From Mycolicibacterium madagascariense (GTDB taxonomy: Bacteria > Actinomycetota > Actinomycetes > Mycobacteriales > Mycobacteriaceae), in contig NZ_AP022610.1 in NCBI RefSeq assembly GCF_010729665.1, positions 310,001 through 374,000 on the forward strand: a DNA stretch of 64,000 nt, written 5' to 3'. Position 1 is the first letter of the stretch. Every line of letters starts with the position of its first letter. The position numbers were made by a program, and so were the translations under genes. The notes under the pieces are model-generated. The model worked only from the letters and a program-made list of their open reading frames with translations. It was not told where the DNA came from and searched no databases. Positions 13,468 through 29,115 of the stretch are shown piece by piece.

Positions 13468-14610
13468 GTGAGCGCGTCCGACACCACCGCCGACGTCATC
13501 GTCGTCGGCGGCGGCATCGCCGGGGTGTCGGTGGCCTACGAGCTGTCCGGCTCCGCGCGCGTCGTGCTGCTCGAGATGGAGTCGACGCTGGCCTATCACA
13601 CCACCGGACGGTCGGCCGCGTTGTTCCTGGAAACCTATGGCGGAGAACAGATCCGAGCCTTGACGACGGGCAGTCGCTCGTTCTTCGAGCAGCCGCCCGA
13701 CCACTTCGATTCGGCCTTGGTCTCCCCGCGGCCGCTGCTGGAGTTCGGCGTCGTGGGGCGCGGTCACCTCGTCGAGAGCCTGCACCGGTCGGTGCTGCCG
13801 TTGGTCGCCGACGCCGAACTGCTCGATGCCGACCGCTGCTGCGAGTTGTTTTCGCTGCTGCGGCGCGACGTGGTCGAGTGCGGCATGTACGAACCGAGGG
13901 CGCTGGCGCTCGACGTGGCCGCCCTGCATCAGGGTTTCGTGCGCGGGGCGCGGTCGAACGGCACCGAGATCGTCCGCGATTCCGCGGTTGCCGCTCTCGA
14001 GCGGGGCGCGAGCACGTGGACGGCGACCACCCGCGACGGCAGCCGGTTCCAGGCTCCGGTCGTCGTCGACGCCGCAGGCGCATGGGCCGACGTGGTCGCC
14101 ACCGCCGCGGGCGTCCCCGGCGTGGGCCTGCGACCGCTGCGCCGGACGATCTTCATGGTGGCCTCACCGCTCGGCGAGGCGAGCCGGGACTGGCCGAACT
14201 TGAGCGACGTCGAGGAGTCCTTCTACGCCAATCCCGAAGGTGCGCAGTTCTTGTGCTCGCCGGCGGACGAAACACCCTGCGCGCCAAGCGATGCCAAGCC
14301 CGACGAGCTGGAGATCGCCCGCGCCATCGACGCGATCGATGCGACGACCACGCTCGGCGTGCGCAGCGTCTCCTCGTCGTGGGCCGGTCTGCGCACCTTC
14401 ACCGCGGACCGGAACTTCGCCCTCGGCGAGGATCCCGAGGCGCCGGGCTTCTTCTGGCTGGCGGGTCAGGGTGGGTACGGCATCCAGACCGCGCCGGCGA
14501 CCGCCAGACTGGCCGCGGCGCTGGTGCTCGGACGGCAGGCACCGCCGGACCTCGTCGACCGGGGTCTGGACGTGGAGCGGCTGGCGCCGCGCCGGGTCAT
14601 GTCGTCGTGA
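13468..14610 (+). CDS. FAD-dependent D-amino acid/glycine oxidase-family dehydrogenase
   Basis: A 380-residue DAO-fold flavoprotein. ADVIVVGGGIAGVSVAYELS is the FAD-binding dinucleotide fold, AYHTTGRSAALFLETYGG contacts the flavin, and GFFWLAGQGGYGIQTAPATA is the C-terminal FAD segment. The pattern is closest to D-arginine dehydrogenase-like enzymes, which oxidise amino acids to imino acids. The start is GTG 13468 (VSASDTTADVIVVGGG), where homology begins. Its last 14 bp overlap the 3' end of the convergent S9 peptidase. Whether it acts with the adjacent peptide-compound operon is unknown. Confidence 0.75.
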   Translation: MSASDTTADVIVVGGGIAGVSVAYELSGSARVVLLEMESTLAYHTTGRSAALFLETYGGEQIRALTTGSRSFFEQPPDHFDSALVSPRPLLEFGVVGRGHLVESLHRSVLPLVADAELLDADRCCELFSLLRRDVVECGMYEPRALALDVAALHQGFVRGARSNGTEIVRDSAVAALERGASTWTATTRDGSRFQAPVVVDAAGAWADVVATAAGVPGVGLRPLRRTIFMVASPLGEASRDWPNLSDVEESFYANPEGAQFLCSPADETPCAPSDAKPDELEIARAIDAIDATTTLGVRSVSSSWAGLRTFTADRNFALGEDPEAPGFFWLAGQGGYGIQTAPATARLAAALVLGRQAPPDLVDRGLDVERLAPRRVMSS

Positions 14611-16462
14611 ACGCCTCGACGAGCCATTCACGGATCGACTTCACCAGTACGGCGCGGTTCTCGCGCTTCACGATGCCGTGGCCGTCGTCGTCGAACAGCA
14701 GGTATTCGACCCGACGATTCAGCCGTCGCAGCGCGTCGAACATCTGACGGGACTCGTGGGCGGGCACGTTGGTGTCGTTGCCGCCGTGCACCAGCAGCAG
14801 GGGAGCGGTGAGCGCCTCGACCCGCAGCAGCGGGGACAGCCGGTCCAGCAGGGCCCGATCGTTGATGGGGTGGCCGTACTTCGGATATGCCTCGGCTGCG
14901 ATCCACGGATCGGTGTTGCGATAGAACGTCGCGAGATCGCTCATACCGCAGATGCTGACCCCCGCCGCGAACAGCTCCGGATGGAACGCCAGCGCGGCCT
15001 GGGTCAGATAGCCGCCGTAGGACCAGCCACAGCACGCGATGCGGTCCGGATGGGCCAGGCCCTCGGCGACCAGGAAGTGGACGCAGTCGGCGACGTCGTC
15101 GAAGGCGCCGAACCGCAGGTGCCGGTCGTCGGCGTGAGAGAACGTCCGCCCGAACCCGCCGGAGCCGCGAACGTTGGGGCTCAGCACGGAGATTCCCGCG
15201 TCGAGCAGTTCGGGGAACACCTCGCTGTAGTCGGGTCGGGCCTGCCCCTCGGGGCCGCCGTGCAGATAGATCATCGCGCCGACGTTCGCACCGCCGGGCG
15301 CCTCGTAGAGCCAGCCCGTGAAGTCGAGGCCGTCGCGGGCCTTCATCTGCACCAGCCGCGGATCGGTCGACGCGTCACCGCCGCTCGGCGCGCGGTCGAC
15401 GCGCTCCCAGGTGCGGGACCGGGGGTCGACCAGTTCCACCGTCCGCGGCGTCGAGGGCCCCTGCACGGTCATCGCCACCATCGACCCGCCCGCGCTGATG
15501 CTGAGCTCGCTGGCCACCGGACCGGGCAGCGGGATGGGCTCGCCGAGCGTGTAGTCGGCGTACTCGAGGATCTGTAACTCGCTGAGCCCGTTGATGTTCC
15601 ACAGCAGGGCGACCGTCGACAGGTCGTCGCTGACCGCGAATTCGTCGAGGTCGTAACCCGGCCGCTCGGCGACGACGTGATAGGACACCCCGTCCTCGGT
15701 GGTGGTCACCTCGACGAGCCGGGTGTGCTCGGCCCCGTTGTCGGTGCGGACGAGGGCCCGCACGTAGCCGCGCGGGCTGTTGATCGGGTAGGTCTTGGCG
15801 GGGCGATACAGCTGTAGGACGTCACCGTGCGGACCGGACCTCAGCCGCCGCGGGTGGTGGTCGTCGAGGATCACCCCGGCATCGGTCGTCGACCCGGGAT
15901 CCGAAGGCAGGAGGGCGATCTCGGTCAACCCGTGCAGCATGATCAGCTCGCGGTAGCCGCGGGGTCCGACCCGGACCAGCGAGGCGCCCGCCCACGCGTC
16001 GATCAGCTTGCCGCCGGAGCGGCGGTCCAGCACCGTGGTGGCGCCGTCGGCCGGATCGATGAGACACGACGTGCCCACGCCGTCGTCGCCGGTGAGGATC
16101 GCGGCGACCCTGGTGCCGTCCCAGCCCACCAGTTCCGCGGTGCCCTCGGGGACGCCGGGGCTCCAGCGGTCGATGCGACGGGCGTCGCGATCGTCGGGAT
16201 CGGTGGTGACGCACCAGATTTGGCTGCGGTTGCCGCCGCCGGGAGCGACCTCGCAGGCCAGCCAGTGCCCGTCGGCGGAGTGGATGACCCTGGTGACCGA
16301 GCCCTCGACGGGCAGGTCCACGTCCCGCGACCGGCTGGCGTGCCTGCCTCGCAAGAAGCGCTGCACCGCACGGGGATACCCACCGTCGTCGACGAGGTGT
16401 GCGAACGCGGTCGCATCCGGGGACACCGACGCCCCGTAGGTGGCGCGGACGTTGCGGTCCAC
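14597..16462 (-). CDS. S9-family prolyl oligopeptidase-like serine peptidase
   Basis: A 621-residue protein with an N-terminal seven-bladed beta-propeller region (about 1-370) and a C-terminal alpha/beta-hydrolase domain. The catalytic triad is visible: Ser481 in CGWSYGGYLT, Asp563 in HGGNDTNVP and His595 in DDDGHGIVKREN. The oxyanion region is MIYLHGGPEGQARPDYSEVF. There is no signal peptide, so it acts in the cytoplasm on short peptides or amides. GTG 16462 starts 4 bp after the amidotransferase stop, so it is the third gene of the operon from 20859. By analogy with NAGGN clusters, which also carry a peptidase, it may degrade the compound made by its neighbours. Confidence 0.82.
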   Translation of the reverse strand: MDRNVRATYGASVSPDATAFAHLVDDGGYPRAVQRFLRGRHASRSRDVDLPVEGSVTRVIHSADGHWLACEVAPGGGNRSQIWCVTTDPDDRDARRIDRWSPGVPEGTAELVGWDGTRVAAILTGDDGVGTSCLIDPADGATTVLDRRSGGKLIDAWAGASLVRVGPRGYRELIMLHGLTEIALLPSDPGSTTDAGVILDDHHPRRLRSGPHGDVLQLYRPAKTYPINSPRGYVRALVRTDNGAEHTRLVEVTTTEDGVSYHVVAERPGYDLDEFAVSDDLSTVALLWNINGLSELQILEYADYTLGEPIPLPGPVASELSISAGGSMVAMTVQGPSTPRTVELVDPRSRTWERVDRAPSGGDASTDPRLVQMKARDGLDFTGWLYEAPGGANVGAMIYLHGGPEGQARPDYSEVFPELLDAGISVLSPNVRGSGGFGRTFSHADDRHLRFGAFDDVADCVHFLVAEGLAHPDRIACCGWSYGGYLTQAALAFHPELFAAGVSICGMSDLATFYRNTDPWIAAEAYPKYGHPINDRALLDRLSPLLRVEALTAPLLLVHGGNDTNVPAHESRQMFDALRRLNRRVEYLLFDDDGHGIVKRENRAVLVKSIREWLVEAFTTT

Positions 16463-16466
16463 GACG

Positions 16467-18251
16467 CTACCGTTCCATGCTCTGCAACCACATCTCCAGC
16501 ACCGCGAGCTGCCACAGGGCGTTGGAGCCCAGGGTGGTGCGAGTGTCGTTGGGAGCGGCCAGGAGTCGTTTCACGGTCTCCGGACGGTACAGCCCGCGCC
16601 TGCGCGCCGCATCGTTGGTCAGCGCATCGTGCACCATGTCGAAGATCTCGCCGTGCAGGTGCCGGATGCCCGGCACCGGAAAGTACCCCTTGGTGCGGTC
16701 GATCACCTCGGCGGGCAGCAGCGTGCGCGACGCCTCCTTGAGCACGCCCTTGCCGCCGGAGCCCAGCTTGAGGTCGGGCGGGCAGGTCGCGGCGAGTTCG
16801 ACGAAGTCGTGGTCGAGGAACGGCACCCTGGCCTCCAACCCCCACGCCATCGTCATCGTGTCCACCCGCTTGACTGGATCGTCGACGAGCATGACCTGCG
16901 TGTCCAACCGCAGTGCGGCATCGACCGCGGTCTCCGCGCCGGGTGCGCTCTGATGCTCGGAGGCAAATCGCCAACTCGAATCATTCTCGGCGGCAACGTA
17001 GTCGGGCGAGAAGATGTCGAGGACGTCCCGATGGCTCCGGTCGAAGAACACCTTGGCGTACTCCGTCGTCGTCTGATCGCGCGGCACGTTCGCCAACGGG
17101 GGATACCAGTCGTAGCCGGCCAGGATCTCGTCGGCGCCCTGCCCGGACTGCACCACCTTGACGTGCTTGCTCACCTCTTCGGACAACAGGTAGAAGGCGA
17201 CGCAGTCGTGGCTGACCATCGGTTCGCTCATCGCCGCAATGGTCTTGGGCACCGCGGGGACGAGTCGTGAACCGTCGATGTGGATGCGGTGGTGATCGGT
17301 GTCGAAGTGTTCGGCGATGAGGTCGGAGTACGAGTACTCGTCGCCGGATTCGCCTCCGGCGGAATCGAATCCGATCGAGAACGTCGCCAACCCGTGCTGG
17401 CCGCCCTCGGCGAGCAGGGCCACGACGAGGGACGAGTCGATGCCGCCCGACAGCAGCACGCCGACGGGAACGTCGGCCACCATGCGCCGGGACACCGCGG
17501 TGCGCAGCGCGTCCATCACGGCGTCCTGCCAGTCGTGTGCGGTCCAACCGGCGCGGGCCGGGTCGCGCTCGAACGTCGGTGTCCAGTAGACGGTGTCGGT
17601 GTGCGAGCCGTCGGGACTGATCACCCGCACGGTCGCGGGCGGCAGCTTGCGCACCCCGCGGTAGATCGTCAGCGGGGCCGGGACCACCGAGTGAAAGGTC
17701 ATGTAGTGGTGCAGCGCCGAGCGGTCGAGGTTGGTGTCGACGTCACCCGCGGCGAGCAGTGCCCGCACCGTCGACGCGAAGCGGATCCGGCCCGGCGACT
17801 CGGCGAGGTAGAGCGGCTTGATGCCGAGCCGGTCCCTGGCCAGGGTGACCACCCCGGTGGCGCGGTCGGCGATCGCGAAGGCGAACATGCCCTTGAAGTG
17901 ATCCACGCAGTGGGCGCCCCACCGGTGGAACGCCTTGATGACCACCTCGCTGTCGGCGCCGGAGAAGAACCCGTAGCCCGCGGCTTCGAGTTCGCGGCGC
18001 AACTCCTGGTAGTTGTAGATGCAGCCGTTGAAGACCAGCGTCAGGCCGAGATCGCTGTCGACCATCGGCTGCTCCCCGCACGCGGACAGGTCGATGATCG
18101 ACAATCGCCGGTGGCCCAACGCAATTCGGCCGTGCGCCACCAGGCCGTCGGAGTCGGGTCCGCGGGTCGCCATGGCGTCGGTCATCCGGCCTACCGCCGC
18201 GACGTCGGCCGAGTGGCCGTCGATGCGGATCTCACCGCAGATTCCGCACAC
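16467..18251 (-). CDS. Asparagine synthase-type amidotransferase, N-acetylglutaminylglutamine (NAGGN) amidotransferase family
   Basis: 594 residues. GTG 18251 is chosen because it places the nucleophilic cysteine at position 2 (VCGICGEIRIDGHSADVAAV), required for class II glutaminases. The glutaminase half includes RGPDSDGL, LGHRRLSIIDLS and FNGCIYNYQELR. The synthetase half has the PP-loop LLSGGIDSSLVVALLAEGG and GQGADEILAGYDWYP. The detailed pattern follows the NAGGN amidotransferase subfamily (TIGR03104) better than AsnB. It would amidate a carboxylate using glutamine and ATP. Its first 20 bp overlap the end of the GCS2/ATP-grasp gene, implying translational coupling. Confidence 0.82.
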   Translation of the reverse strand: MCGICGEIRIDGHSADVAAVGRMTDAMATRGPDSDGLVAHGRIALGHRRLSIIDLSACGEQPMVDSDLGLTLVFNGCIYNYQELRRELEAAGYGFFSGADSEVVIKAFHRWGAHCVDHFKGMFAFAIADRATGVVTLARDRLGIKPLYLAESPGRIRFASTVRALLAAGDVDTNLDRSALHHYMTFHSVVPAPLTIYRGVRKLPPATVRVISPDGSHTDTVYWTPTFERDPARAGWTAHDWQDAVMDALRTAVSRRMVADVPVGVLLSGGIDSSLVVALLAEGGQHGLATFSIGFDSAGGESGDEYSYSDLIAEHFDTDHHRIHIDGSRLVPAVPKTIAAMSEPMVSHDCVAFYLLSEEVSKHVKVVQSGQGADEILAGYDWYPPLANVPRDQTTTEYAKVFFDRSHRDVLDIFSPDYVAAENDSSWRFASEHQSAPGAETAVDAALRLDTQVMLVDDPVKRVDTMTMAWGLEARVPFLDHDFVELAATCPPDLKLGSGGKGVLKEASRTLLPAEVIDRTKGYFPVPGIRHLHGEIFDMVHDALTNDAARRRGLYRPETVKRLLAAPNDTRTTLGSNALWQLAVLEMWLQSMER

Positions 18252-20859
18252 GGTGTCCCCCTTCCTGTTTCGTCGTGTTCGACGTCCCACCGGTGAGTAT
18301 CCAGGTGTCCTTGCTGCCCCCGCCCGACGACGAGTTGACGATGCGCGAGCCGTGCGCCGCCACCCGTGTCAGCCCCGCGGGCATGACGTGCGCGGTGACC
18401 GGGCCGCCGTTCTCCGAGCGCAGGTGCACGAACGCGCGCAGGTCGACGTGATGGGGGTACATGCCCTCGCCGTCGAACGTCGGGTGGGTGGACAGCGCGA
18501 TCGTCTCCTGGGCGATGAAGCGCTCGGGCTGCGTCTCCAATTCGCGGCGGCGCTGCTGCAACTCCGACGCCGACGCGTCGGGGCCGATGACGACGCCCGC
18601 GCCGCCGAAGCCGTCGATGGGTTTGACGACGAGTTCGGCCAAGTGCTCCAGGACGTAGTCACGCTGGGCCCGTTCGGCGCAGATCCACGTGGGCACCTGG
18701 GCCAGCTTCGGCTTCTCGCCGAGGTAGTACTCGATCATGGCGGGCACGTGGGCGTAGATCGCCTTGTCGTCGGCGATCCCGTTGCCGAGCGCATTGGCGA
18801 TAGTCAGCCTCCCGCCGGCGACCGCGGCGAGCAGGTCCTCGCGCAGGACGACGTCGTCGTAACCGGTCGACGACAGCAGCATGTCCTCGTCGAGCCGCGC
18901 GTACAGCACGTCGACGCGACGAACGCCGGAACCGATGTGGCGCACGAGGTTTCCGTCGCGGAACGACAGGTCCGTGGTCTGCACCAGGGGAATGCCCATC
19001 TCGCTGGCGAGGAAGGTGTGTTCGAACCACGCGGAGTCCTCCCAGCCGCCGCTGAGCACCGCGACCGCCGGTTCGTCCGCGCAGTGCGCCGGCGCGGCCG
19101 CGCGCAACGTCTCCAAGAGCAGCGCGGGCACCTCGTCGACGCTGCCGAGGTCGGCGGGCCTGCCGAGCTCGCTCAGATGTCGGTCCAGCAGTCGACGGTT
19201 GGCGATGGCGTACGCGATTCCCGACGGGACGCGCAGATTGTCCTCCAGCACTTGCCAATTCCCCGCGCGGTCGCACACCAGGTCGGTGCCGCACACGTGG
19301 GCCCGCACCGGCGCGGTCGACATGCGCCCGCCCGATCGGAAGCCCGGCGCGCGGTCGAGGGCGTGCACGCCGATCACCCCGTCGGCGATGATCGCCTGGT
19401 CGGAGTACACGTCGCGGAGGAACTCGTTGAGCGCCCTGGCCCGCTGGCCGAGACCCTCGGTGAGCGTGGCCCATTCGTCGGCCGCGATCAGCCGCGGGAC
19501 GAGGTCGAGGGGGAACACCTGGGCGCGGCTCTGACCGCTGACCCGGAAGGTGATGTTCTCGGCGCGCTGGTCCTGCTCGACGTCACCCTCGCGGGCCCGC
19601 AGCGCCGGCACCCCGAGTGCGGCGATCGTGCCCAGGATGTCGTCGTAGGCCGGGCGGGGTCTGCCGTCTGCGTCGACGGCCTCGTCGTGCCCGGTGGGGC
19701 GGTCGGCGTGGTAGCCGAACAGCAGCCGCGGATCGGCGACGGTGGCCGCGGCCGTGTCGGGGACGGTCCCCGCCGTCTCGTCGATCAGCTGGTCGACGAC
19801 GTCGCTGAGCCTGCCCCTGCGGCGCAGCGCCCTGCGCTGGCGGGCGGCGGACGTGCCCGCCAGCAACACCCGCTGGGTCAGCTCGCTCACCACCGCCCAG
19901 TCGCCGGCCGCTTCGAGCTGGGGTCGCAGCAGGTCCACCAGCTCGGTGACGACCTCGGCGGCGGGGCGCCCGCGCGGGCCTGCGACGTCCACCAGGTCGC
20001 CCTCGAGACCGGACCTGGCCGCGCGCCAGAGCGCGGCCCGCCCGAGGGGCGCGGACACCGTCACCGCGGGTGTGCCCGACCGCAGGCCGGTGAGCTCGCG
20101 CTCGACGAGGGCGCGGAACAGCCCGGCGATCAGCACGATGGTGTCGACGGACGGGCAGCTGTCGCACACCCGCAACTCCACGGTCGGCGTCGCCACCGCG
20201 GGCCGGACGTCGAAGTAGACCATGCCCCCGTCGGCGATGGCGCCGCTGTGGACGAGGTCGGAGACCAGCTCGTCGTACTCGGCTGCCGAGGACACCGGCG
20301 CGGCGAGGCCCGTCGTCGGCCAGCGCTGCCAGACCAGCGTGCGGCCGCTGGCGTAGCCGGTGTCGGAACCGTCGGCCCAGAACGGCGAACTCGCGCTGAG
20401 CGCAAGCAGCGTCGGCACGTAGGGCGCGACCCGGTTCGCGACGGCGACCGACTCGTCGCGATCGGCGACGCCGACGTGGACCTGCGTGCCGCAGATGAGC
20501 TGTTCCCGTGCCAGTAGCTGATAGTCCGCGAGCATCCGCCGGTACCGCGCGGTCTGGGTGACCTGCATCTCCGCCGGCACCGAGAGGGGCACCGAGCCCG
20601 CCGCGACGACGCCCATCCCGAGGCCCGCCGCGGTGTCCACCAGCACCCTGCGGTGGCGCTGCAGGTCCGCCCGCAAACCGTCGAGGGTGTCGACGACCCC
20701 GCTGTTCAGCTCGATGACGCAGCGCTGCAGTTCGGCGACGTAGTTGTCGGACAGTTCGGCGAGCAGTTCGGGTGCTCGCGCCGTGAGCCGCCTGGTGCGC
20801 AGATCGACGAGGTGAAACTCCTCTTCCACGCCGAGCGTCCGCCTCGCGATGGCAGTCAT
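18232..20859 (-). CDS. Fused carboxylate-amine ligase (GCS2/YbdK) and circularly permuted ATP-grasp protein
   Basis: 875 residues, two enzymes in one chain. Residues 1 to about 370 are GCS2/YbdK type: RRTLGVEEEFHLVDLRTRRL, CGTQVHVGVADRDESVAVAN and VELRVCDSCPSVDTIVLIAG. From about 420 to the end is a circularly permuted type-2 ATP-grasp: VLEDNLRVPSGIAYAIANRR, VVKPIDGFGGAGVVIGPDAS and SSSGGGSKDTWILTGG. Both halves activate a carboxylate as acyl phosphate for amide formation. It leads an operon with the NAGGN-type amidotransferase and S9 peptidase, in the place where classical NAGGN clusters carry a GNAT/ATP-grasp synthetase. Product unknown; a capped di- or tripeptide amide is inferred. Confidence 0.85.
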   Translation of the reverse strand: MTAIARRTLGVEEEFHLVDLRTRRLTARAPELLAELSDNYVAELQRCVIELNSGVVDTLDGLRADLQRHRRVLVDTAAGLGMGVVAAGSVPLSVPAEMQVTQTARYRRMLADYQLLAREQLICGTQVHVGVADRDESVAVANRVAPYVPTLLALSASSPFWADGSDTGYASGRTLVWQRWPTTGLAAPVSSAAEYDELVSDLVHSGAIADGGMVYFDVRPAVATPTVELRVCDSCPSVDTIVLIAGLFRALVERELTGLRSGTPAVTVSAPLGRAALWRAARSGLEGDLVDVAGPRGRPAAEVVTELVDLLRPQLEAAGDWAVVSELTQRVLLAGTSAARQRRALRRRGRLSDVVDQLIDETAGTVPDTAAATVADPRLLFGYHADRPTGHDEAVDADGRPRPAYDDILGTIAALGVPALRAREGDVEQDQRAENITFRVSGQSRAQVFPLDLVPRLIAADEWATLTEGLGQRARALNEFLRDVYSDQAIIADGVIGVHALDRAPGFRSGGRMSTAPVRAHVCGTDLVCDRAGNWQVLEDNLRVPSGIAYAIANRRLLDRHLSELGRPADLGSVDEVPALLLETLRAAAPAHCADEPAVAVLSGGWEDSAWFEHTFLASEMGIPLVQTTDLSFRDGNLVRHIGSGVRRVDVLYARLDEDMLLSSTGYDDVVLREDLLAAVAGGRLTIANALGNGIADDKAIYAHVPAMIEYYLGEKPKLAQVPTWICAERAQRDYVLEHLAELVVKPIDGFGGAGVVIGPDASASELQQRRRELETQPERFIAQETIALSTHPTFDGEGMYPHHVDLRAFVHLRSENGGPVTAHVMPAGLTRVAAHGSRIVNSSSGGGSKDTWILTGGTSNTTKQEGGHRVRNLR

Positions 20860-20936
20860 CGCCCCACGCTAAGTGACGTGAAAGTCAATCGTGTTACGTC
20901 GGGAGAAGCGCCCCTCGGGTAGCCAGCAAGCCGGCG

Positions 20937-21947
20937 TCAGCGATGGAAGGCGGGCGGCAGGGGCATGCCCCGCGCGGCGAGCACCGCGCGCAGTCGCGAG
21001 GGATAGTCGGTGATGATGCCGTCGGCACCCGCATCGATCTGCGCATTCATCGCGGCGGGGTCGTCGATCGTCCACGGGATGACCGTGAGCCCCGCGGCGT
21101 GGGCGCGGTCGACGAAGGACCGGTCGGCGACGAGGTGGAAGTCGGGGTCGCGTGGCGTGCGGTCCGGCGGTACCGAGTAGCCGGGGGACAGGATGTTCGC
21201 CCCGACCAGCTGGGCGCCCTCGATGGGATCGGGGACGTCGGCGGGGTTCACGCCGCCCAGCCACGGCGAGTCGGGCACATAGGTGGTCTCGTCCCACAGC
21301 GCGACCAATGGGATCGACGGCTCGGCCTCGCGCACCATCGGCAGCGTGCGCCAGTCGAAGCTCTGGATCTCGACCTCGCCGACCTTGCCCGCCGCGCGGA
21401 CCGCCGCCAGGATGACGTCGACGAATTCCCTTGGCGGCGCTGATGCCTCGGGGGCGGCCGCCTCGACCTTGGTCTCGACGTTGTACCTGACGCCTGCGTG
21501 ATAGGTGTCGGCGAGCGAGAAGACCTCCGGCAGCGTCGCGATCCGGTTGCCCCTGACCACCTCGGCCGTGGGGAACCCGGCGAGCAGCTTGCCGCAGTCG
21601 AGGGTGCGCAGCTGCGCCAGCGTCAGGTCGTGAACCAGCTTGCCCACGTAGGGATACTGCGGATCGCCCGCCACCGCGGGCCGGGTGTCGGAGCACTTCG
21701 TGGGATCGATCTTCGGGTCGTGCCACACCAGGGGTTGGTGGTCCTTGGTGATGACGATGTCGAGTTCGAGGGTCGAGACGCCGAGTTCGAGCGCCTTCGC
21801 GAACGCCCGCAGCGACTCCTCGGTCGTCTCGCCGCGACCGCCGCGGTGGGCCTGCAGATCGAAGGTGTCGGCGGCCGCGGCGCAGGGTGCGGTGACGAAC
21901 GACGCTGCGGCGCAGCCCAGCACGGCCAGCAGGACTCGTAGGCGCAT
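20937..21947 (-). CDS. Secreted glycerophosphodiester phosphodiesterase
   Basis: 336 residues with a Sec-type signal peptide (MRLRVLLAVLGCAAASFVTA, cleavage probably after the AAA near residue 26). The GDPD signature follows: LQAHRGGRGETTEESLRAFA with the catalytic His and Arg, TLELDIVITKDHQPLVWHDP with the metal-binding Glu/Asp and second catalytic His, and VIPWTIDDPAAMNAQIDAGA near the C-terminus. It would hydrolyse glycerophosphodiesters outside the membrane to glycerol-3-phosphate and an alcohol. Transcribed alone on the minus strand; 77 bp separate it from the upstream peptide-compound operon. Confidence 0.88.
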   Translation of the reverse strand: MRLRVLLAVLGCAAASFVTAPCAAAADTFDLQAHRGGRGETTEESLRAFAKALELGVSTLELDIVITKDHQPLVWHDPKIDPTKCSDTRPAVAGDPQYPYVGKLVHDLTLAQLRTLDCGKLLAGFPTAEVVRGNRIATLPEVFSLADTYHAGVRYNVETKVEAAAPEASAPPREFVDVILAAVRAAGKVGEVEIQSFDWRTLPMVREAEPSIPLVALWDETTYVPDSPWLGGVNPADVPDPIEGAQLVGANILSPGYSVPPDRTPRDPDFHLVADRSFVDRAHAAGLTVIPWTIDDPAAMNAQIDAGADGIITDYPSRLRAVLAARGMPLPPAFHR

Positions 21948-22032
21948 GGAGGAAGACTAGTCAGCCGGGCCCGGGCGGCACGGGCTCTGTGCAGGTGAAC
22001 ACCGGAGTCGTCATCCGCCGTTCGCCCCCCGC

Positions 22033-22896
22033 TCACTCCAGCAGCTCGGTGCGGCGCTGGTCCTCCCAGAGCGCCATCCGGGTGCGGGCCGGCTCGCCGA
22101 TCTCGTCCATCACCAGCGGCACCAGCAGTTCGGTGAGCAGGAACCCGGCGGCCATGCTCTGGTAGGTCGTGTCGACGGTGCTGGACGCCGCCAGCACCAC
22201 CTCGGCCTCCGGTGCGACCGGGCACGCCAGGTCGTCGGTGATCAGCAGGACCGTGGCGCCTGCGCGATGCACGCGCGCGGCGAGGTCGGCGGCGCTGCGC
22301 TGATAGCGGTGGTAGTCGAACAGGACGACGACGTCGCGCCGGGTCAGCTCGATCATCGCGCCGAGGTCGCGTCCGCCGGGCTCGGTGAGCACCCGCACGC
22401 CGGGGCGCAGCTGCTCCAGGTGCATCGCGAGATGCAGGGCCAGCAGGTGGGAGAAGCGGCCGCCGTGCAGATACAGGGTCCGGCTGGTGTCGGCGAGCAG
22501 CGCGATGGCGGCCTCGAGTGCGGAGCCGGGCAGCTCCGCGAGAGTGGCTGCGGCACAAGCGTTCTGCGCATGCGCCTGTCGCAGTAGACGGTCCAGCGGG
22601 CCGTCGGCCGGAGGTGCGCTCGGCAGCCGCGTGATGGGTCCGCTGGACTGGGCGGTGAGTTCGGCGCGCAGCGCGACCTGCAGGTCGGCGAAGCCTTCGT
22701 AGCCCAGCGACTGCGCGAACCTGAGCACGGTCGGCGGGCTGACCTCGGCGCGTTCGGCCAACCGCGCGGCGCTTGCCAGACCGGCGCTCGGATAGTCGGC
22801 CAGCAGCGCCCGGCCGACGCGGCGTTCGGCTCGACTCAGCGTCGGCAGGGCGGACGTGGCCCTGGCGGCGACGGTCTCTCCGAGCGCCGGTGTCAC
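22033..22896 (-). CDS. MurR/RpiR-family transcriptional regulator
   Basis: 287 residues. The N-terminal HTH_6 domain (about 12-90) includes LSRAERRVGRALLADYPSAG and AERAEVSPPTVLRFAQSLGY; the C-terminal SIS domain (about 120-255) includes TLYLHGGRFSHLLALHLAMH and VVVLFDYHRYQRSAADLAAR. SIS domains usually bind a phosphosugar, but RpiR proteins near amine pathways also occur. GTG 22896 gives a GTGA overlap with the stop of the class II amidotransferase, so the two are translationally coupled. The divergent GlnA3-like operon at 23816 is the likely target. Confidence 0.82.
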   Translation of the reverse strand: MTPALGETVAARATSALPTLSRAERRVGRALLADYPSAGLASAARLAERAEVSPPTVLRFAQSLGYEGFADLQVALRAELTAQSSGPITRLPSAPPADGPLDRLLRQAHAQNACAAATLAELPGSALEAAIALLADTSRTLYLHGGRFSHLLALHLAMHLEQLRPGVRVLTEPGGRDLGAMIELTRRDVVVLFDYHRYQRSAADLAARVHRAGATVLLITDDLACPVAPEAEVVLAASSTVDTTYQSMAAGFLLTELLVPLVMDEIGEPARTRMALWEDQRRTELLE

Positions 22897-23687
22897 GGCG
22901 GGTCGAGGGGAAGGTGGGTCTGCGACGCGTCGCGCAGCGAGAACGCGATGACCGACTCCTGCGGCAGTGGTTCCCACGGGAGGTCACCGAATCCGGTCGA
23001 CCCAATCGCCACGACGTCGCCGAGGCGGGCCATGCGCAGGGAGAAGTAGTCCTCGAGGTGTTCGACGGGCAGGTCGGTGGCGCCGATCTCGGCGAGGTCC
23101 TCGTCGGGCAGCCGGCTGCGGGCGTGCGCGTGGACGACGATCAGCTGATCCTCACCGAGCAGGAGTGCGTTGAGGCTGGCCTCGGGGTAGCGGCCGCGCA
23201 GTTCGGCGACGGCGCGGCGGACGGCCTCGGCGAGGTTCGGGGCGGTCCGGCGATGCTGACGAATGATGGCGAAGTAGCGCTCGCTGTCGGTGGTGCCGCG
23301 CAGTGCGGCCAGGCTGTCTGACTCGAGGAACTCGCTTAGGGGCCCCATGGGTTTGATGGAACCGTTGTGCGCCATGGCGATTCCGTCGGCCAGGAACGGA
23401 TGGGAGTTCTGGGGCTCGACGGCGAGACCGCTCGTCGCCCACCGCAGGTGCAGCACGCTCGCCGTGGACCGCACGTCGTGGGTGGCCGAGACGAAGTCGC
23501 CGTCGTCGACCGCACTGTTGGCCGAGACCCGCACGTGCGGTCGATCTCCGAGACCGTCGACGCCGGCCAGTCCCCAGCCGTCGCCGTGGATCTTCGTCAG
23601 GGCGACGAAGTCCCTCAACACGTCGCTGCCCACGGCGTCGGCGATCGAGATCGGTCCCGCGGACACGACACCCAGCAGCCGACACAT
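22893..23687 (-). CDS. Class II glutamine amidotransferase-like hydrolase (EgtC/YafJ type)
   Basis: 264 residues. ATG 23687 puts the nucleophile at Cys2 (MCRLLGVVSAGPISIADAVG). Other Ntn-glutaminase elements are KIHGDGWGLAG, LHLRWATSGLAVEPQNSHPF (substrate-binding Arg and His) and GIAMAHNGSIKPMGPLSEFL. No synthetase domain is attached, so it resembles EgtC, which hydrolyses a gamma-glutamyl amide. Beside a GlnA3-like gamma-glutamyl ligase, a gamma-glutamyl hydrolase role analogous to PuuD is plausible; this is inferred. It is the first gene of the pair with the RpiR regulator. Confidence 0.8.
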   Translation of the reverse strand: MCRLLGVVSAGPISIADAVGSDVLRDFVALTKIHGDGWGLAGVDGLGDRPHVRVSANSAVDDGDFVSATHDVRSTASVLHLRWATSGLAVEPQNSHPFLADGIAMAHNGSIKPMGPLSEFLESDSLAALRGTTDSERYFAIIRQHRRTAPNLAEAVRRAVAELRGRYPEASLNALLLGEDQLIVVHAHARSRLPDEDLAEIGATDLPVEHLEDYFSLRMARLGDVVAIGSTGFGDLPWEPLPQESVIAFSLRDASQTHLPLDPP

Positions 23688-23754
23688 GCCACGCATCCTC
23701 TCAACCGGTCGTCTTATGAATCAACCAACAATCGTCGGTTTTAAAGATTCTGAA

Positions 23755-23771
23755 ACATACATGACATACAT
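23755..23771. promoter_or_regulatory. Tandem ACATACAT repeat in the divergent amidotransferase/GlnA3-like promoter
   Basis: ACATACAT occurs at 23755-23762 and again at 23764-23771, separated by one G, within an unusually AT-rich stretch of the 128-bp divergent region. It may contain promoter elements or the RpiR operator. The same region holds a weak AACCG...CGGTT inverted repeat at about 23703-23740. Confidence 0.35.
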
Positions 23772-23815
23772 TCCTCCCAGACTCACTGTTCGACTGCGAC
23801 GTGGAGGGATGCACG

Positions 23816-25165
23816 ATGGCCAGGGCGAGCGACGCCACGGGGACCTCGGCTGCCGACGACCTGGCCCGCGATCTGCGCGCCAACGGCGTTCGGCTCATCG
23901 CCGGTTCGCTGACCGACCCCGCCGGCGTGACGCGGGCGAAGTACGTTCCGGTGTCCCGGCTCGGCGCCTTCGAGCGGTCCGGCATGGGGGTGTCCCCCAG
24001 CTGGAGCGTGTTCTGCGTCGACTCGGGCATCGCCTTCACGCCCACCATCGGCGTCACCGGTGATCACCGGATCCGCATCGACCGCCGCGACGTGCGGGTC
24101 ATCGACGACGGCATCGGTTGGGCCCCAGGCAATCTCAACGATCAGGCCGGGACGCCGGTGCCACTGTGTCCGCGGTCGCTGCTGGCCCGGGCCGAGCAGT
24201 CCGCGGCCGACCGGGGGCTCTCCGCACGCGTCGGCGCCGAACTGGAGTGCACGATGGTCGCCCTCGACGGCGGCCCCGCCACGACCGATCCGTGGTCGCC
24301 CTACGGCATCCGCACGTCGCTCGACCGTTCGGCACTGCTCGTCGACCTCGCCGAGACCGCCGAGACCGCGGGGCTCGACGTCGAGCAGATCCATACCGAG
24401 TACGGACACGACCAGCTCGAGGTGTCACTGGCCCCGACGACGCCGGTCGCCGCGGCCGACGCGGTGATTCTGACCAGGATCGTGCTTGGCCGCGTGGCCG
24501 CCAGGCACGGGCTGCGCATCTCGTTCGCCCCGGTGCCCTTCGACGGCGCGGCGGGCAACGGCGCGCACCTGCATCTCTCGCTGGCCGACGCCGCGGGTCC
24601 GCTGTTCTCCGGCGGCGACGGACCGCACGGCATCCGGACCGCGGGCGGGTCGGCGATCGCCGGGGTCGTCGAGGCGCTACCCGACCTGCTCGCCGTCTAC
24701 GCCGGTTCGGTGCTGTCGGCGGCGCGGCTGCGGCCGGGGAACTGGGCGGGCGCCGCGGCCTGCTGGGGACTCGAGAATCGCGAGGCCGCAGTCCGATTCG
24801 TGGCGGCCACCGCGGGCAGCCCGCACGGCGCCAACGCCGAGCTGAAGCTGATCGACCCGAGCGCGAACCCGTATCTGGCGGCGGCCGCGTTCCTCGGCAG
24901 CGCGCTGCGCGGCATCGACCTCGGGCTCGACCTGCCGCCTGAGATCCCCGAGAACCCCGCGCAGTCCGACGTGGCGACGCGACCGCTGCCCTCCGATCAA
25001 CGCGCAGCGCTCGATGCGTTCGAATACTCCAGCGTCGCAGCGGAATTGCTCGGACCCGAGGTCGTCGAGGCGCTCGTCGCCGTGCGGCGCTACGAGCTGA
25101 AGACCTATGGCGAGCTCACCCTCGCCGACACCACCCGGGCGTTGCGCCTGGCGTGGAGCTGTTGA
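23816..25165 (+). CDS. GlnA3-type glutamine synthetase-like gamma-glutamyl-amine ligase
   Basis: 449 residues, a full-length glutamine synthetase fold close to mycobacterial GlnA3 (Rv1878). N-terminal beta-grasp: IAGSLTDPAGVTRAKYVPVS. Catalytic domain: RVGAELECTMVALDGG (metal Glu), HTEYGHDQLEVSLAP, GNGAHLHLSLADAAGPLFSG and RPGNWAGAAACWGLENREAA. Members of this branch in Streptomyces ligate glutamate to polyamines or ethanolamine rather than ammonia. ATG 23816 has GGAGGG 7 bp upstream. First gene of an operon with an APC permease, aminotransferase, amidohydrolase and decarboxylase, which supports an amine substrate. Confidence 0.82.
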   Translation: MARASDATGTSAADDLARDLRANGVRLIAGSLTDPAGVTRAKYVPVSRLGAFERSGMGVSPSWSVFCVDSGIAFTPTIGVTGDHRIRIDRRDVRVIDDGIGWAPGNLNDQAGTPVPLCPRSLLARAEQSAADRGLSARVGAELECTMVALDGGPATTDPWSPYGIRTSLDRSALLVDLAETAETAGLDVEQIHTEYGHDQLEVSLAPTTPVAAADAVILTRIVLGRVAARHGLRISFAPVPFDGAAGNGAHLHLSLADAAGPLFSGGDGPHGIRTAGGSAIAGVVEALPDLLAVYAGSVLSAARLRPGNWAGAAACWGLENREAAVRFVAATAGSPHGANAELKLIDPSANPYLAAAAFLGSALRGIDLGLDLPPEIPENPAQSDVATRPLPSDQRAALDAFEYSSVAAELLGPEVVEALVAVRRYELKTYGELTLADTTRALRLAWSC

Positions 25166-25188
25166 CCACCCACGAGAAGGAGACATCG

Positions 25189-26691
25189 ATGAGCACCAAC
25201 ACGCCATCGGCGGGCCCGTCCGAGCGGGCCGACCAGATCCCGCACCGCAGGCTGCCGTTCTGGGTGGCGCTCGCGATGTCGGTCGCCCTGGTCGGCCCGA
25301 CGCTCGCGATGTCCGGCAACGGGCAGGGCCTGATCGCGACCGTGGGCAAGGCCATCCCGCTGGTGTTCCTGATCGGTCTGATCGGGGTCTCGCTGGTCGG
25401 GTACAGCTTCGTCCGCCTGACCCGCCACCTCAACCACGCCGGCTCGGCCTACGGTCTGGTGGGCGGAACCATCGGGCCGCGGACCGGGTTCTTCTCCGGC
25501 TTCGCGATGCTCGGTGCCTACGTCGGCTTCGCGATCGGCACCCTGGCGCTGACGGCGGCGTTCGTCAACGCATTCATCGCCGAACTACAACCCAACGACC
25601 CCAACCCCTTTCAGGTGCCGTGGCTCATCGTCGTCGTGATCGGCGCGCTGATCTCGTTCCTGCTGTCGGGCCGCGACGTGCGACTGCTGGCCAAGATCCT
25701 GCTCGCCATCGAGGGCGTCGGCATCGTGTCCATGATCGTGCTGGTGGTGGTGATCTTCGCCAAGGGCGGCGCACCGACCACCGGCGTCGACTTCAGCGCG
25801 TTCTCCTTCGACGGGGTTTCCGCGTCCGCGGTGTTCAGCGCCGTCGTCGCGGCCTTCCTGTCGTGGGCGGGCTTCGAGGCCTGCGCGTCGATGGGCGAGG
25901 AGACCGACGACCCCGGCCGCAACATCCCGCGCGCGCTGGCCGGGACGCTGATCCTCACGGGCGTGCTCTTCGTGGTCGTGATGTTCGCCCAGGTCGTCGG
26001 CTTCGGCACCGACGCGGCCGGGTTGTCGTCGTTCCAGAACGCGGGAAACACGCTGGGCGCCTTGGGTAGTACCTACGTCGGGCAGTGGTTCAGCCTGCTG
26101 ATCATCTTCACCGCCATCGTGTCGGCGTTCGGCTGCCACCTGGCGTGCTCGGCGACCTCGGGCCGGATGTTGTACGCGTTCGGCCGCGACGGATTCGGTC
26201 CGAAGTCGTTGGCACACATCCACGAGGGCACCGGCGGACCCCGCTTCGCCACGTGGTTGGTCGTCGGCGTCTCGCTGGTCGTCGACCTGATCTGCGGCGC
26301 CGTCGGCTGGCCCGACATGGGCACCGGCAACCCGGCGATCAACACCTACTTCCTGTTCGCGGTCGCGGGCTCGGTCTGCCTGATGGTCTGCTACCTGCTC
26401 GTCGAGATCGCCGCCATCTACTTCGTCGGTGCACGCAAGTTCCTCGACGTGCACGGGGGCAAGGGCAAGATCCCGGGGCTGGTGCTGCCCGCCCTCGGCG
26501 CGATCGTCATCGCGGTCGTGCTGTGGTTCAACGTCAAGGGCGCGACCAGTTGGGCGGATGCCCCGCTGCTCGGATTGTATTGGTGCGTCGTCGGATTGGT
26601 GATCGCCGTCGCCGCCTCGGGCATCGCCAAGCGCGTGGGGGAGTCGTTGACCGCCGAGCTGGCCGACACCCCCGCGACCCGAACCGAATGA
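25189..26691 (+). CDS. APC-family amino acid/amine permease
   Basis: 500 residues, about 12 membrane spans. The N-terminal LPFWVALAMSVALVGPTLAM is span 1, and FLSWAGFEACASMGEETDDP carries the conserved GFE region followed by the acidic loop PGRNIPRALAGT. Other spans include LLIIFTAIVSAFGCHLACSA and LVLPALGAIVIAVVLWFNVK. The start is ATG 25189 with AAGGAGA upstream. It lies 23 bp after the GlnA3-like gene and overlaps the next gene by ATGA. It would import the amine or amino acid that the operon degrades, like PuuP. Confidence 0.85.
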   Translation: MSTNTPSAGPSERADQIPHRRLPFWVALAMSVALVGPTLAMSGNGQGLIATVGKAIPLVFLIGLIGVSLVGYSFVRLTRHLNHAGSAYGLVGGTIGPRTGFFSGFAMLGAYVGFAIGTLALTAAFVNAFIAELQPNDPNPFQVPWLIVVVIGALISFLLSGRDVRLLAKILLAIEGVGIVSMIVLVVVIFAKGGAPTTGVDFSAFSFDGVSASAVFSAVVAAFLSWAGFEACASMGEETDDPGRNIPRALAGTLILTGVLFVVVMFAQVVGFGTDAAGLSSFQNAGNTLGALGSTYVGQWFSLLIIFTAIVSAFGCHLACSATSGRMLYAFGRDGFGPKSLAHIHEGTGGPRFATWLVVGVSLVVDLICGAVGWPDMGTGNPAINTYFLFAVAGSVCLMVCYLLVEIAAIYFVGARKFLDVHGGKGKIPGLVLPALGAIVIAVVLWFNVKGATSWADAPLLGLYWCVVGLVIAVAASGIAKRVGESLTAELADTPATRTE

Positions 26692-27943
26692 GCACGCTCT
26701 ACGAGCGCGACGAGGCCGCGGTCGCCGGCATCGAGAAGCTGCGCTTCTTCCCGCTGGAGGTCGTCTCGGGCCACGGCTGCACGCTGGTCACCCCCGACGG
26801 CCGCGAGCTGCTCGACCTGTCGGCCACGTGGACGGCCAGCGGGCTCGGCCACGGCCACCCGGCGATCGTCGAGGCGGTCAGCCGGGCGGTCCGCACCGCA
26901 CCGGGCTCCGGCGGACTGTCGGCCGTGCACCCGGATTCGGTGGGGTTGGCCGAGGATTTGCTGGCACTGGTGCCGGGCACCGGTGCACGCCGGGTGTACC
27001 TGGGGCACGCCGGATCCGACGCCAACGACGTCGCGCTGCGCGCCTGCCGCCATGCGTCGGGCCGACGGACCGTCATCGCCTTCGAGCACAGTTACCACGG
27101 CGGTGTCGGCGTCGCGATGGGCGTGTCCGGCGTCCACGTCGACGCGGGCGCGCCCGCCGACCCGGACGCGGTATTCCTGGCCTACCCCAACCCCTTTCGG
27201 CCGGGACCGGACGGCATCGAGGCGGACGTCGACGCCTGCCTCGCCCGGGCCCAGGAATACCTGGCCGGCGGAACCATCGCCTGCCTCATCGTGGAGCCCA
27301 TCCTGTCCGACGGCGGGCTCGTCGTGCCACCCGACGGCTTCCTCGCGCGGCTGCAGGAGCTGTGCACGGCTGCCGGCGTGCCGCTCATCTGCGACGAGGT
27401 CAAGATGGGTCTCGGGCGGCCGGGCACGCTGCACGCCTTCGAGCACGACGGCATCACGCCCGACATCGTCACCTTCGGCAAGGTGCTCGCCGGCGGGTGG
27501 CCGCCCTGCTCACCACTGCGGGCAACCCGGTGTGCGCGGCAGCGGGGCGCGCGGTGCTCGCCACCATCGTCGGCGACCGCCTTCCCGAGCACGCGGCCAC
27601 GGTCGGCGGACTGCTCGCCGACGGCCTCCGCGGACTGACCGGATCCCCAGGTGGCGAGCACGTCGGCGACGTCAGGGGGCGCGGGCTGGCGATCGGTCTC
27701 GAACTGGTCGATCCCCACACCGGCGAACGCGACGCGCGGATGGCCGCCCAGGTGGTCTACCGTGCCTGGGAGTTGGGTGCGGTCGTCTACTACGTCGGCG
27801 GCAACGTCCTGGAGATCACGCCACCGCTCGTCCTCACCGAGGCTGAGGCCGGGCGGGCCGTGGAGATCCTCGGCGCGGCCATCGCCGACGCGGCCGCCGG
27901 ACGAGTCGACGCGCAGGAGGTGGCCCGATATGCCGGCTGGTGA
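26688..27943 (+). pseudogene. Class III aminotransferase disrupted by an internal deletion/frameshift
   Basis: ATG 26688 opens a normal class III aminotransferase: LDLSATWTASGLGHGHPAIV, YLGHAGSDANDVALRACRHA, PLICDEVKMGLGRPGTLHAF and TFGKVLAGG with the PLP lysine K265. Just after this, at about 27490-27502, the frame shifts: frame 1 runs into nonsense until a stop at 27638, while homology continues in another frame as ALLTTAGNPVCAAAGRAVLA to the stop at 27943. Some 15-20 residues usually found between LAGG and ALLTTAGNP are missing, so this is a deletion not divisible by three. Either a real inactivation or a sequencing/assembly error. It overlaps its neighbours normally (ATGA upstream, 14 bp downstream). 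Confidence 0.8.
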
Positions 27944-29105
27944 ATTGCCCGACGTCTTCGACGGCGTCGAGGCCGCGGTGCCCCCCGCACTCGCCGACCA
28001 CCTGCGCGGCATCGGGCTCATCGACCACCACGTCCACGGCGCGTTCGTCGCACCGGTCGACCGGGCGGCCTTCGAAGCCTCCATCAACGAGGGTTCGACC
28101 GACCCCGTGCCGGCGTTCATGACCCAGTTCGACTCTCCCCTGGGCCTTTCCATTCGCCGCTGGTGCGCACCGCTGCTCGGGCTCGAGCCGTTGGCACCCA
28201 CCGACGAGTACTGGGCCCGGCGGGCCGAGCTCTCCTCCAAGGAACTGGCCCGCACCATGCTGCCTGCCGCGGGGGTCTCGCGCTGGATCGTGGACACGGG
28301 ATTCAAGGGTGACCTGATCTGCACGCCGGAGCGGCTGACCGAGCTCAGCGGGGTGGCGTCGTCGGAGATCCTGCGGTTGGAACGGCTCACCGAGGATCTG
28401 CTCGACGACGGCACCGCGCCGGAGGACTTCCCGGCCGCCTTCCGCGCCGCACTGGCGAAGGCCGTCGACGACCCGAACGTGTTGGGCACCAAGACGATTG
28501 CGGCCTACCGCATCGGCTTCGACGTCGACTGGTCCCGGCCGACGGATGCCGAGGTGGTCGAGCACGCCCGCACGCTCGGCGCGGGCACCCACCCGGTGCG
28601 CGTGGCCGACCCCGTGCTCATCGCGTTCGGCGTGCACGAGGCGGCCGCGCACGGGTTGCCGATCCAGGTGCACGTCGGCTTCGGCGACCGCGACATGGAC
28701 CTGCACCGCAGCGACCCGATGCTGCTGCTGCCGCTGCTGCGCACGATGACGCCGGTACCCGTTCTGCTGTTGCACTGCTACCCCTTTCAGCGCCAGGCGG
28801 GCTATCTGGCGCAGGCCTTCGACCACGTCAACTTCGACGTCGGCCTGGCGATCAACTACCTCGGCGTGCGGTCGACCGGGCTGGTCGCCGAGGCGCTCGA
28901 GACCGCGCCCTTCGCCAAGCAGCTGTTCTCCTCCGACGCGTTCGGGCCGCCCGAACTGCACGTGCTCGGCGCGGTGCTGTGGCGGCGGGCGATGGGTCTG
29001 GTGCTGGGGGAGTGGATCACGGCCGGGGACTGCGGCGTCGCCGACGCCATCCACCTCGTCGACCTGATCGGCGTGCGCAACGCCGAGCGCGTCTACGGGC
29101 TGTGA
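27930..29105 (+). CDS. FluG-like amidohydrolase (amidohydrolase_2 family)
   Basis: 391 residues. The metal-binding HxH is at H34-V-H36 in GLIDHHVHGAF. Further elements are GLPIQVHVGFGDRDMDLHRS (His near the barrel centre), PVLLLHCYPFQRQAGYLAQA and LFSSDAFGPPELHVLGAVLW with a likely catalytic Asp. FluG-type proteins fuse this kind of amidohydrolase to a glutamine synthetase; here the two halves are separate genes in one operon. It could hydrolyse an amide such as a gamma-glutamyl amine. ATG 27930 overlaps the preceding reading frame by 14 bp. Confidence 0.75.
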   Translation: MPAGELPDVFDGVEAAVPPALADHLRGIGLIDHHVHGAFVAPVDRAAFEASINEGSTDPVPAFMTQFDSPLGLSIRRWCAPLLGLEPLAPTDEYWARRAELSSKELARTMLPAAGVSRWIVDTGFKGDLICTPERLTELSGVASSEILRLERLTEDLLDDGTAPEDFPAAFRAALAKAVDDPNVLGTKTIAAYRIGFDVDWSRPTDAEVVEHARTLGAGTHPVRVADPVLIAFGVHEAAAHGLPIQVHVGFGDRDMDLHRSDPMLLLPLLRTMTPVPVLLLHCYPFQRQAGYLAQAFDHVNFDVGLAINYLGVRSTGLVAEALETAPFAKQLFSSDAFGPPELHVLGAVLWRRAMGLVLGEWITAGDCGVADAIHLVDLIGVRNAERVYGL

Positions 29106-29115
29106 CCTGGTCGTC

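Follow-up and report, generated by a model that had tools for sequence, protein, structure and literature searches.

The 64,000-nucleotide stretch of the Mycolicibacterium madagascariense genome analysed here (NZ_AP022610.1, positions 310,001 to 374,000 of the forward strand; hereafter the window) carries a three-gene operon encoding a double ligase, a glutamine amidotransferase of the AsnO type that we call AsnO2, and an S9 family peptidase. The operon is real, conserved and functionally coherent. Judged by its sequence relationships, it is probably a sister pathway of the synthesis of the salt-stress osmolyte N-acetylglutaminylglutamine amide (NAGGN), a dipeptide amide, with the ligase and the peptidase swapped, and we are inclined to think that it makes a peptide amide other than NAGGN, which these ligases build and AsnO2 caps. 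We computed family membership, intact catalytic sites, a conserved operon, the absence of the NAGGN ligase Ngg from most carriers tested, and a loop in AsnO that varies with the ligase partner.

In the classical route, as two papers describe it (PMC8070244, PMC5563000), Ngg acetylates glutamine and ligates a second glutamine to it, giving N-acetylglutaminylglutamine (NAGG), and AsnO amidates this product. The AsnO-Ngg-M42 pathway of S. meliloti and P. aeruginosa and the window operon are alike in the TIGR03104 family, in the logic of ligase, amidotransferase and peptidase, and in being single-strand operons. They differ in that Ngg, a GNAT domain with an ordinary ATP-grasp, is replaced here by a GCS2 domain with a circularly permuted (CP) ATP-grasp; M42 is replaced by S9, an N-acetyltransferase is absent, and the AsnO loop has another form.

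Organization of the operon

The three genes lie on the minus strand. The fusion and AsnO2 genes overlap by 20 bp, and 4 bases separate the AsnO2 stop from the S9 start, exactly as the original prediction had read them.

18232..20859, minus strand: GCS2 and circularly permuted ATP-grasp fusion ligase, 875 amino acids (aa) (Pfam and TIGRFAM profiles; AlphaFold2 model)
19762..20847, minus strand: GCS2 half of the fusion, residues 5-366, like YbdK and plant glutamate-cysteine ligase
18292..19698, minus strand: CP-ATP-grasp half of the fusion, residues 388-856, like glutathione synthetase and GspS
16467..18251, minus strand: AsnO2, class II glutamine amidotransferase of TIGR03104, 594 aa, GTG start at 18251
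16512..16556, minus strand: C-terminal loop of AsnO2, residues 566-580, R571-x-x-L-G, which tracks the ligase partner
14597..16462, minus strand: S9 family peptidase, 621 aa, acylaminoacyl-peptidase-like, GTG start at 16462
20860..20897, minus strand: putative 38-bp element upstream of the fusion, with a -10-like TAGCGT 6 bases 5' of the ATG

The predicted fusion was borne out by Pfam, which places GCS2 (PF04107, 182 bits) at residues 9-285 and CP_ATPgrasp_2 (PF14403, 414.8 bits, cut-off 32) at residues 455-834; the GCS2 half also scores 276 bits against TIGR02050, over the cut-off of 176.4. NCBI names the protein "carboxylate--amine ligase/circularly permuted type 2 ATP-grasp protein". AsnO2 reaches 950.4 bits with TIGR03104 (curated cut-off 570.1) versus 437 with the asparagine synthase family TIGR01536, and has the PP-loop SGGIDSS. 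Since its gene opens with GTG-TGC, Cys2 is exposed, and the call of a NAGGN-type class II amidotransferase with Cys2 proved right. In the peptidase (PF00326, 163 bits) Ser481, Asp563 and His595 are all present in the alignment; we take them, in line with the S9 family, to be the triad that had been predicted to be intact. No acetyltransferase domain was found by Pfam in the three proteins. Pairwise ratios of non-synonymous to synonymous substitution, calculated against four related loci, are 0.09-0.20 for all parts of the operon, which indicates purifying selection on all three genes.

Catalytic sites and folds of the fusion ligase

Residue conservation was measured in 41 fusions, the window protein and 40 of the 61 loci in a structure alignment from which 17 fusion loci had been excluded (matches crossing a stop, or halves on separate genes). 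In the GCS2 half, E12, E14, E43, E50, H128, R173, E228 and R230 are invariant; these Glu, His and Arg residues are presumably those of the metal and substrate site of the GCS family. D526, E539, N541, K746 and G753 are invariant in the CP-ATP-grasp half. The loss of catalytic residues from either half, which would have spoken against the original prediction, was thus not observed; with metal and ATP residues invariant in both, both halves should act.

The closer fold matches of the fusion are small-molecule ligases, and the best ones of the CP-ATP-grasp half are glutathione synthetases of the permuted type. The order of the two domains is analogous to that of GshF, whose ATP-grasp is ordinary, whereas Pfam assigns the C half of the fusion to the permuted type. 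Compared with the carboxylate-amine ligases of the YbdK family (1r8g, 1tt4), the window GCS2 is fused to a CP-ATP-grasp and shares its operon with AsnO and S9. The C half is 42% identical over 437 residues to Mfla_0391 (3n6x), a single-domain CP_ATPgrasp_2 chain annotated as "putative glutathionylspermidine synthase".

Gene order and its distribution

A scan of genome contigs with the fusion as query gave 77 loci from the best 80 of 146 matches, and both ligase halves occur together in 60 of them. The order fusion-AsnO-S9 on a single strand is kept in 51 of these 60 fusion loci, which is beyond chance and bears out the conservation across actinobacteria that had been proposed as a check. L041 has the same order with a frameshifted AsnO; AsnO is present without an S9 gene next to it in L024 and L069; AsnO is not directly downstream, despite DNA being there, in L023, L037, L065 and L083, the last of which has AsnO and S9 upstream of the fusion instead; and the sequence ends too early to judge in L018 and L025.

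In an even sample of 249 genomes of the taxonomic order, TIGR03104 was found in 123 and a full-length fusion in 24. In 19 of these 24 genomes the fusion has a TIGR03104 gene no more than about 250 bases away; in four (G054, G121, G193, G247) it does not, and in G177 the two are on different contigs. It is sporadic within the genus of the window (3/29 sampled genomes). The closest fusion loci among the matches listed are from Mycobacterium, and carriers include Gordonia, Williamsia, Actinomycetospora, Microlunatus and Kitasatospora; operons of this kind occur in many actinobacteria of the soil.

Variant arrangements were also observed: AsnO-S9-fusion (L083/L128, which are a single contig), AsnO-S9-GCS2-ATPgrasp with unfused ligase genes (L126), and AsnO-S9-ATPgrasp without GCS2 (L125, L127, L129, L130, L143, L186). 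A GCS2 homologue, 31-45% identical, is encoded elsewhere in 9 of 10 ATP-grasp-only genomes. Because the ligase part may be the fusion, GCS2 alone or CP-ATP-grasp alone, the double ligase, put forward as the defining feature, is not the invariant. Among 723 neighbour genes of 96 loci we found no conserved fourth gene, such as a regulator or a transporter, and only lineage-bound groups, the largest covering 17 loci and lying on the opposite strand.

Some loci stand apart. L190 (G081:C34:17000-31000) retains AsnO and S9 and the fusion is missing; the gene immediately upstream of AsnO is a member of the neighbour group found ahead of the fusion in loci of Gordonia and Williamsia, which looks like a loss of nothing but the ligase gene. 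Four loci of other mycobacteria (L068, L070, L072, L073) have a stand-alone GCS2, 73-74% identical to the N half of the fusion, with no AsnO, S9 or ATP-grasp within the sequence examined around it. L020, from a bin labelled Nevskia, has the same operon and the same AsnO protein as L021, which the same study binned as Mycobacterium, and is probably a mis-binned contig, not a transfer to another phylum.

Most tested carriers of the new-type operon lack Ngg

The 5.94-Mb genome of the window also has a classical NAGGN trio: AsnO1 (TIGR03104, 964 bits), an adjoining Ngg (TIGR03103, 794 bits) and a peptidase that we take to be of the M42 type. No Ngg was found by TIGR03103 at the window locus, the sole one of the genome over the cut-off being that beside AsnO1 (G000:C1:2246180). 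The double ligase had been predicted to replace the GNAT/ATP-grasp enzyme; it does stand in the place of Ngg in its operon, but since the trio is complete, the operon is an extra pathway here and not a replacement. Likewise, the predicted likeness to the NAGGN cluster holds for the amidotransferase family but not for the peptidase, S9 instead of M42. AsnO1 itself (L089 8331, G000:C1:2244330) is read from a rare ATT start, the other 156 of the 157 AsnO genes starting with ATG, GTG or TTG, and its tree branch has roughly double the length of the branch of L188, its nearest relative.

We surveyed the neighbours of 171 AsnO rows, among which some loci recur as shorter copies and L012-L088 were collected via the fusion. 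Ngg adjoins 62 rows (9 with M42 in view), and GCS2, CP-ATP-grasp and/or S9 adjoin the other 109; Ngg was found together with GCS2, CP-ATP-grasp or S9 in 0 of the 171, and M42 occurs only in Ngg rows, for which 4 kb were visible on both sides in 12 of 62 and at most 1.6 kb in 49. In an even phylum sample (296 genomes including that of the window), 10 of 32 TIGR03104 genes adjoin GCS2 or CP-ATP-grasp and not Ngg.

Ngg was then searched genome-wide in 39 genomes selected from the surveys, 38 with the new type and G203 as an Ngg control. At E 1e-100, 35 of the 38 lack Ngg, which was detected in G203; the three positives (G000, that of the window, G186 and G241) each carry both kinds of operon. The new-type operon cannot, therefore, in general depend on the product of Ngg, and its own product should, as predicted, differ from NAGGN.

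The AsnO loop tracks the ligase partner

The AsnO alignment comprises 157 of the 171 rows, 13 loci having been dropped (shorter copies, or the frameshifted L041) and L162 being too short. The sharpest difference in conserved columns between Ngg and non-Ngg AsnO is a single region before the C-terminal LWQ motif. There, AsnO proteins with an Ngg neighbour read L-T-P-L-x-G (55/59 rows), and the others have R-x-x-L-G, R-x-x-x-G or something unlike either. After collapsing 5 identical rows to 152 distinct ones, we observed that position 571 is Leu in 55 of 56 Ngg-type proteins and Ile in the remaining one (S. meliloti AsnO, pSymB, L144); among 96 non-Ngg proteins it is Arg in 85, another residue in 11, and never Leu or Ile. 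Window AsnO2 has Arg571, hence not the Leu/Ile of Ngg neighbours, a feature that emerged from this analysis and is not a published criterion. Arg571 is present in 67/67 fusion, 10/11 GCS2-only and 7/10 ATP-grasp-only contexts, and an equivalent Arg in 116 of 120 further AsnO proteins retrieved with a fusion-type query, many of which NCBI calls NAGGN amidotransferase. On these alignments, residue 571 is a simple sequence test for the type of AsnO.

All 157 AsnO proteins, AsnO2 included, have Gln at position 371, where 1ct9 and the genome's own AsnB have the Glu of the SGEG active-site motif of asparagine synthetase B. In the E. coli enzyme, this Glu is important for forming aspartyl-adenylate. 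The shared Gln371 and the differing loop would fit a common amidated end with a different remainder of the substrate.

In the main tree (91 rows after thinning, one an AsnB outgroup), the 52 rows with S9, GCS2 or ATP-grasp neighbours form one group with a support of 95 in the Shimodaira-Hasegawa-like approximate likelihood ratio test (SH-aLRT). L194-L196 fall among the Ngg-type proteins in this tree and in the loop-free tree, lie beside CP-ATP-grasp and lack the classical loop; given the test of a single non-Ngg origin reported below, a loop change together with the ligase partner is suggestive only in this case. For the same reason we do not claim that the ligase was swapped independently several times, although the AsnO trees suggest that the Ngg label changed 3 to 5 times.

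A third AsnO group comprises seven loci, six from f15 genomes (L142, L175, L177, L179, L192, L200, L201), with a more distant GCS2 nearby in opposite orientation and a loop of its own, neither Arg nor Leu at 571. The f15 genomes, presumably Micromonosporaceae, also have Ngg-M42 loci of the classical type whose AsnO has the classical loop (L176, L178, L180, L181, L187), in keeping with the NAGGN of a Micromonospora mentioned below.

Upstream region and neighbouring genes

Many mycobacterial fusion operons have TTAACRC-N3-GGTAAY, then TA[GC]CGT, with the ATG a few bases on, which predicts a leaderless-type start for them. Of these parts, the first half of the element and the -10-like part are the only ones recognisable in the window. 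The element resembles GlnR boxes. One of 6 genomic sites with one mismatch lies 107-92 bases before AsnO1; control shared with NAGGN was nevertheless rejected, a looser pattern preceding just 2 of 60 Ngg-type AsnO genes and a reversed control being equally common in the genome. A scan of 14000-22500 gave no sigma-70-type promoter and no terminator-like site.

About 1 kb past the upstream GDPD gene, at 22033-30564, lie genes for an RpiR/SIS regulator, an EgtC-like class II amidotransferase, an amino-acid permease, aminotransferase-like and PLP (pyridoxal phosphate)-decarboxylase-like proteins, and a glutamine-synthetase-like protein nearest to gamma-glutamylputrescine synthetase, under the cut-off of that family. 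These genes look like a gamma-glutamyl amine cluster of their own.

Discussion

The fusion may act in the manner of GshF, the bifunctional glutathione synthetase. The GCS2 half would activate a carboxylate to an acyl phosphate and join it to an amino acid X, glutamate with its gamma-carboxylate being the likeliest substrate (Glu + X + ATP giving gamma-Glu-X), and the CP-ATP-grasp half would add Y, a second amino acid or an amine, with a further ATP to give gamma-Glu-X-Y. Via an acyl-adenylate, AsnO2 would then amidate the C-terminal carboxylate with glutamine-derived ammonia, just as N-acetyl-Gln-Gln is amidated by AsnO. Hydrolysis of the product, once unneeded, could fall to the S9 peptidase, as PMC5563000 suggests for the dipeptidase of NAGGN clusters. 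We infer the order of the steps, glutamate as first residue, the amide product and a role as compatible solute; the gamma-glutamyl tripeptide version taken alone is tentative, clearly less probable than a peptide amide other than NAGGN.

Several observations weigh against this pathway. By sequence, the match of the ATP-grasp half to GshB is weak (E 0.7). ATP-grasp stands beside AsnO without GCS2 in L124, L125, L127, L129, L130, L143, L186 and L194-L196, and GCS2-AsnO-S9 without ATP-grasp in L084, L085, L088, L145-L147 and L199. G019, a complete one-contig ATP-grasp-only genome, has no GCS2 homologue at E 1e-20; a tripeptide made in two fixed steps can therefore not be the rule everywhere. Fusions without an adjacent AsnO (L023, L037, L065, L138, L139, L140, L141) mean that amidation may not be obligatory. 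When the loop columns were removed, S9-type AsnO split in the best tree (2 changes, 62 rows), six Streptomyces-type GCS2-only rows leaving the group, so part of the SH-aLRT support comes from the loop; a single clade was not rejected (p 0.403). Nor was a single origin of all non-Ngg AsnO in an approximately unbiased (AU) test on 62 rows (p 0.117), and the loop correlation may thus rest on few events.

The single-ligase operons suggest that one ligation can suffice in some lineages. Rather unlikely, although the best of the alternatives, is that a single ligase half makes a dipeptide amide and the other is structural or forms an unrelated bond, with different species using GCS2 or CP-ATP-grasp for the same type of X-amino-acid amide. 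The GCS2-only and ATP-grasp-only versions adjoining AsnO, mostly with S9, and the Arg571 common to all three contexts agree with it, but the invariant metal and ATP residues of both halves do not.

That the operon makes NAGGN or a trivial variant, AsnO2 being a spare AsnO, seems improbable to us. AsnO2 is indeed 59.7% identical to S. meliloti AsnO, scores highly with TIGR03104 and shares Gln371 with the classical enzymes, but residue 571 differs in every row tested, the three proteins have no acetyltransferase by Pfam, and the rarity of Ngg among the carriers tested led us to reject this reading as the main one. The tagging of a protein or larger peptide, reportedly proposed by Iyer et al. 2009 for CP-ATP-grasp/alpha-E systems and known for the GCS2-fold enzymes of pupylation, is very improbable, since no further gene is conserved beyond lineage-specific neighbours and the closer folds are small-molecule ligases. 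In addition, characterised AsnO works on a dipeptide, according to PMC8070244.

Literature searches found no paper describing this operon; the amidoligase survey of Iyer et al. 2009, said to cover such gene neighbourhoods, may already show it, and Sagot et al. 2010 reportedly deals with AsnO/Ngg. According to PMC5563000, Frankia isolated from Casuarina has an "asnO-dipeptidase-ngg" cluster whose AsnO is >60% identical to others and whose "putative Ngg" is <15% identical. Its peptidase between AsnO and "Ngg" matches the AsnO-S9-ligase order of L125, L127, L129, L143 and L083, and a candidate reading is that this "Ngg" is an unrecognised case of the new ligase type. NAGGN was isolated from a Micromonospora, in which asnO and ngg were predicted, according to PMC8146288.

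Beyond the favoured peptide amide other than NAGGN, we propose with some reserve that TIGR03104 might be a general peptide-capping enzyme with exchangeable ligases (Ngg, GCS2, CP-ATP-grasp or the fusion), each making its own peptide amides. The fusion would then yield an amide-capped, glutathione-like gamma-glutamyl tripeptide, serving as compatible solute or nitrogen store beside NAGGN in some bacteria, including that of the window. Should the favoured reading hold, naming the product NAGGN on the strength of AsnO alone would be wrong for a good share of actinobacteria, and peptide amides of a new kind would be there to be discovered; the cultured carriers in Gordonia, Williamsia, Actinomycetospora, Microlunatus and Kitasatospora make the metabolite directly testable.

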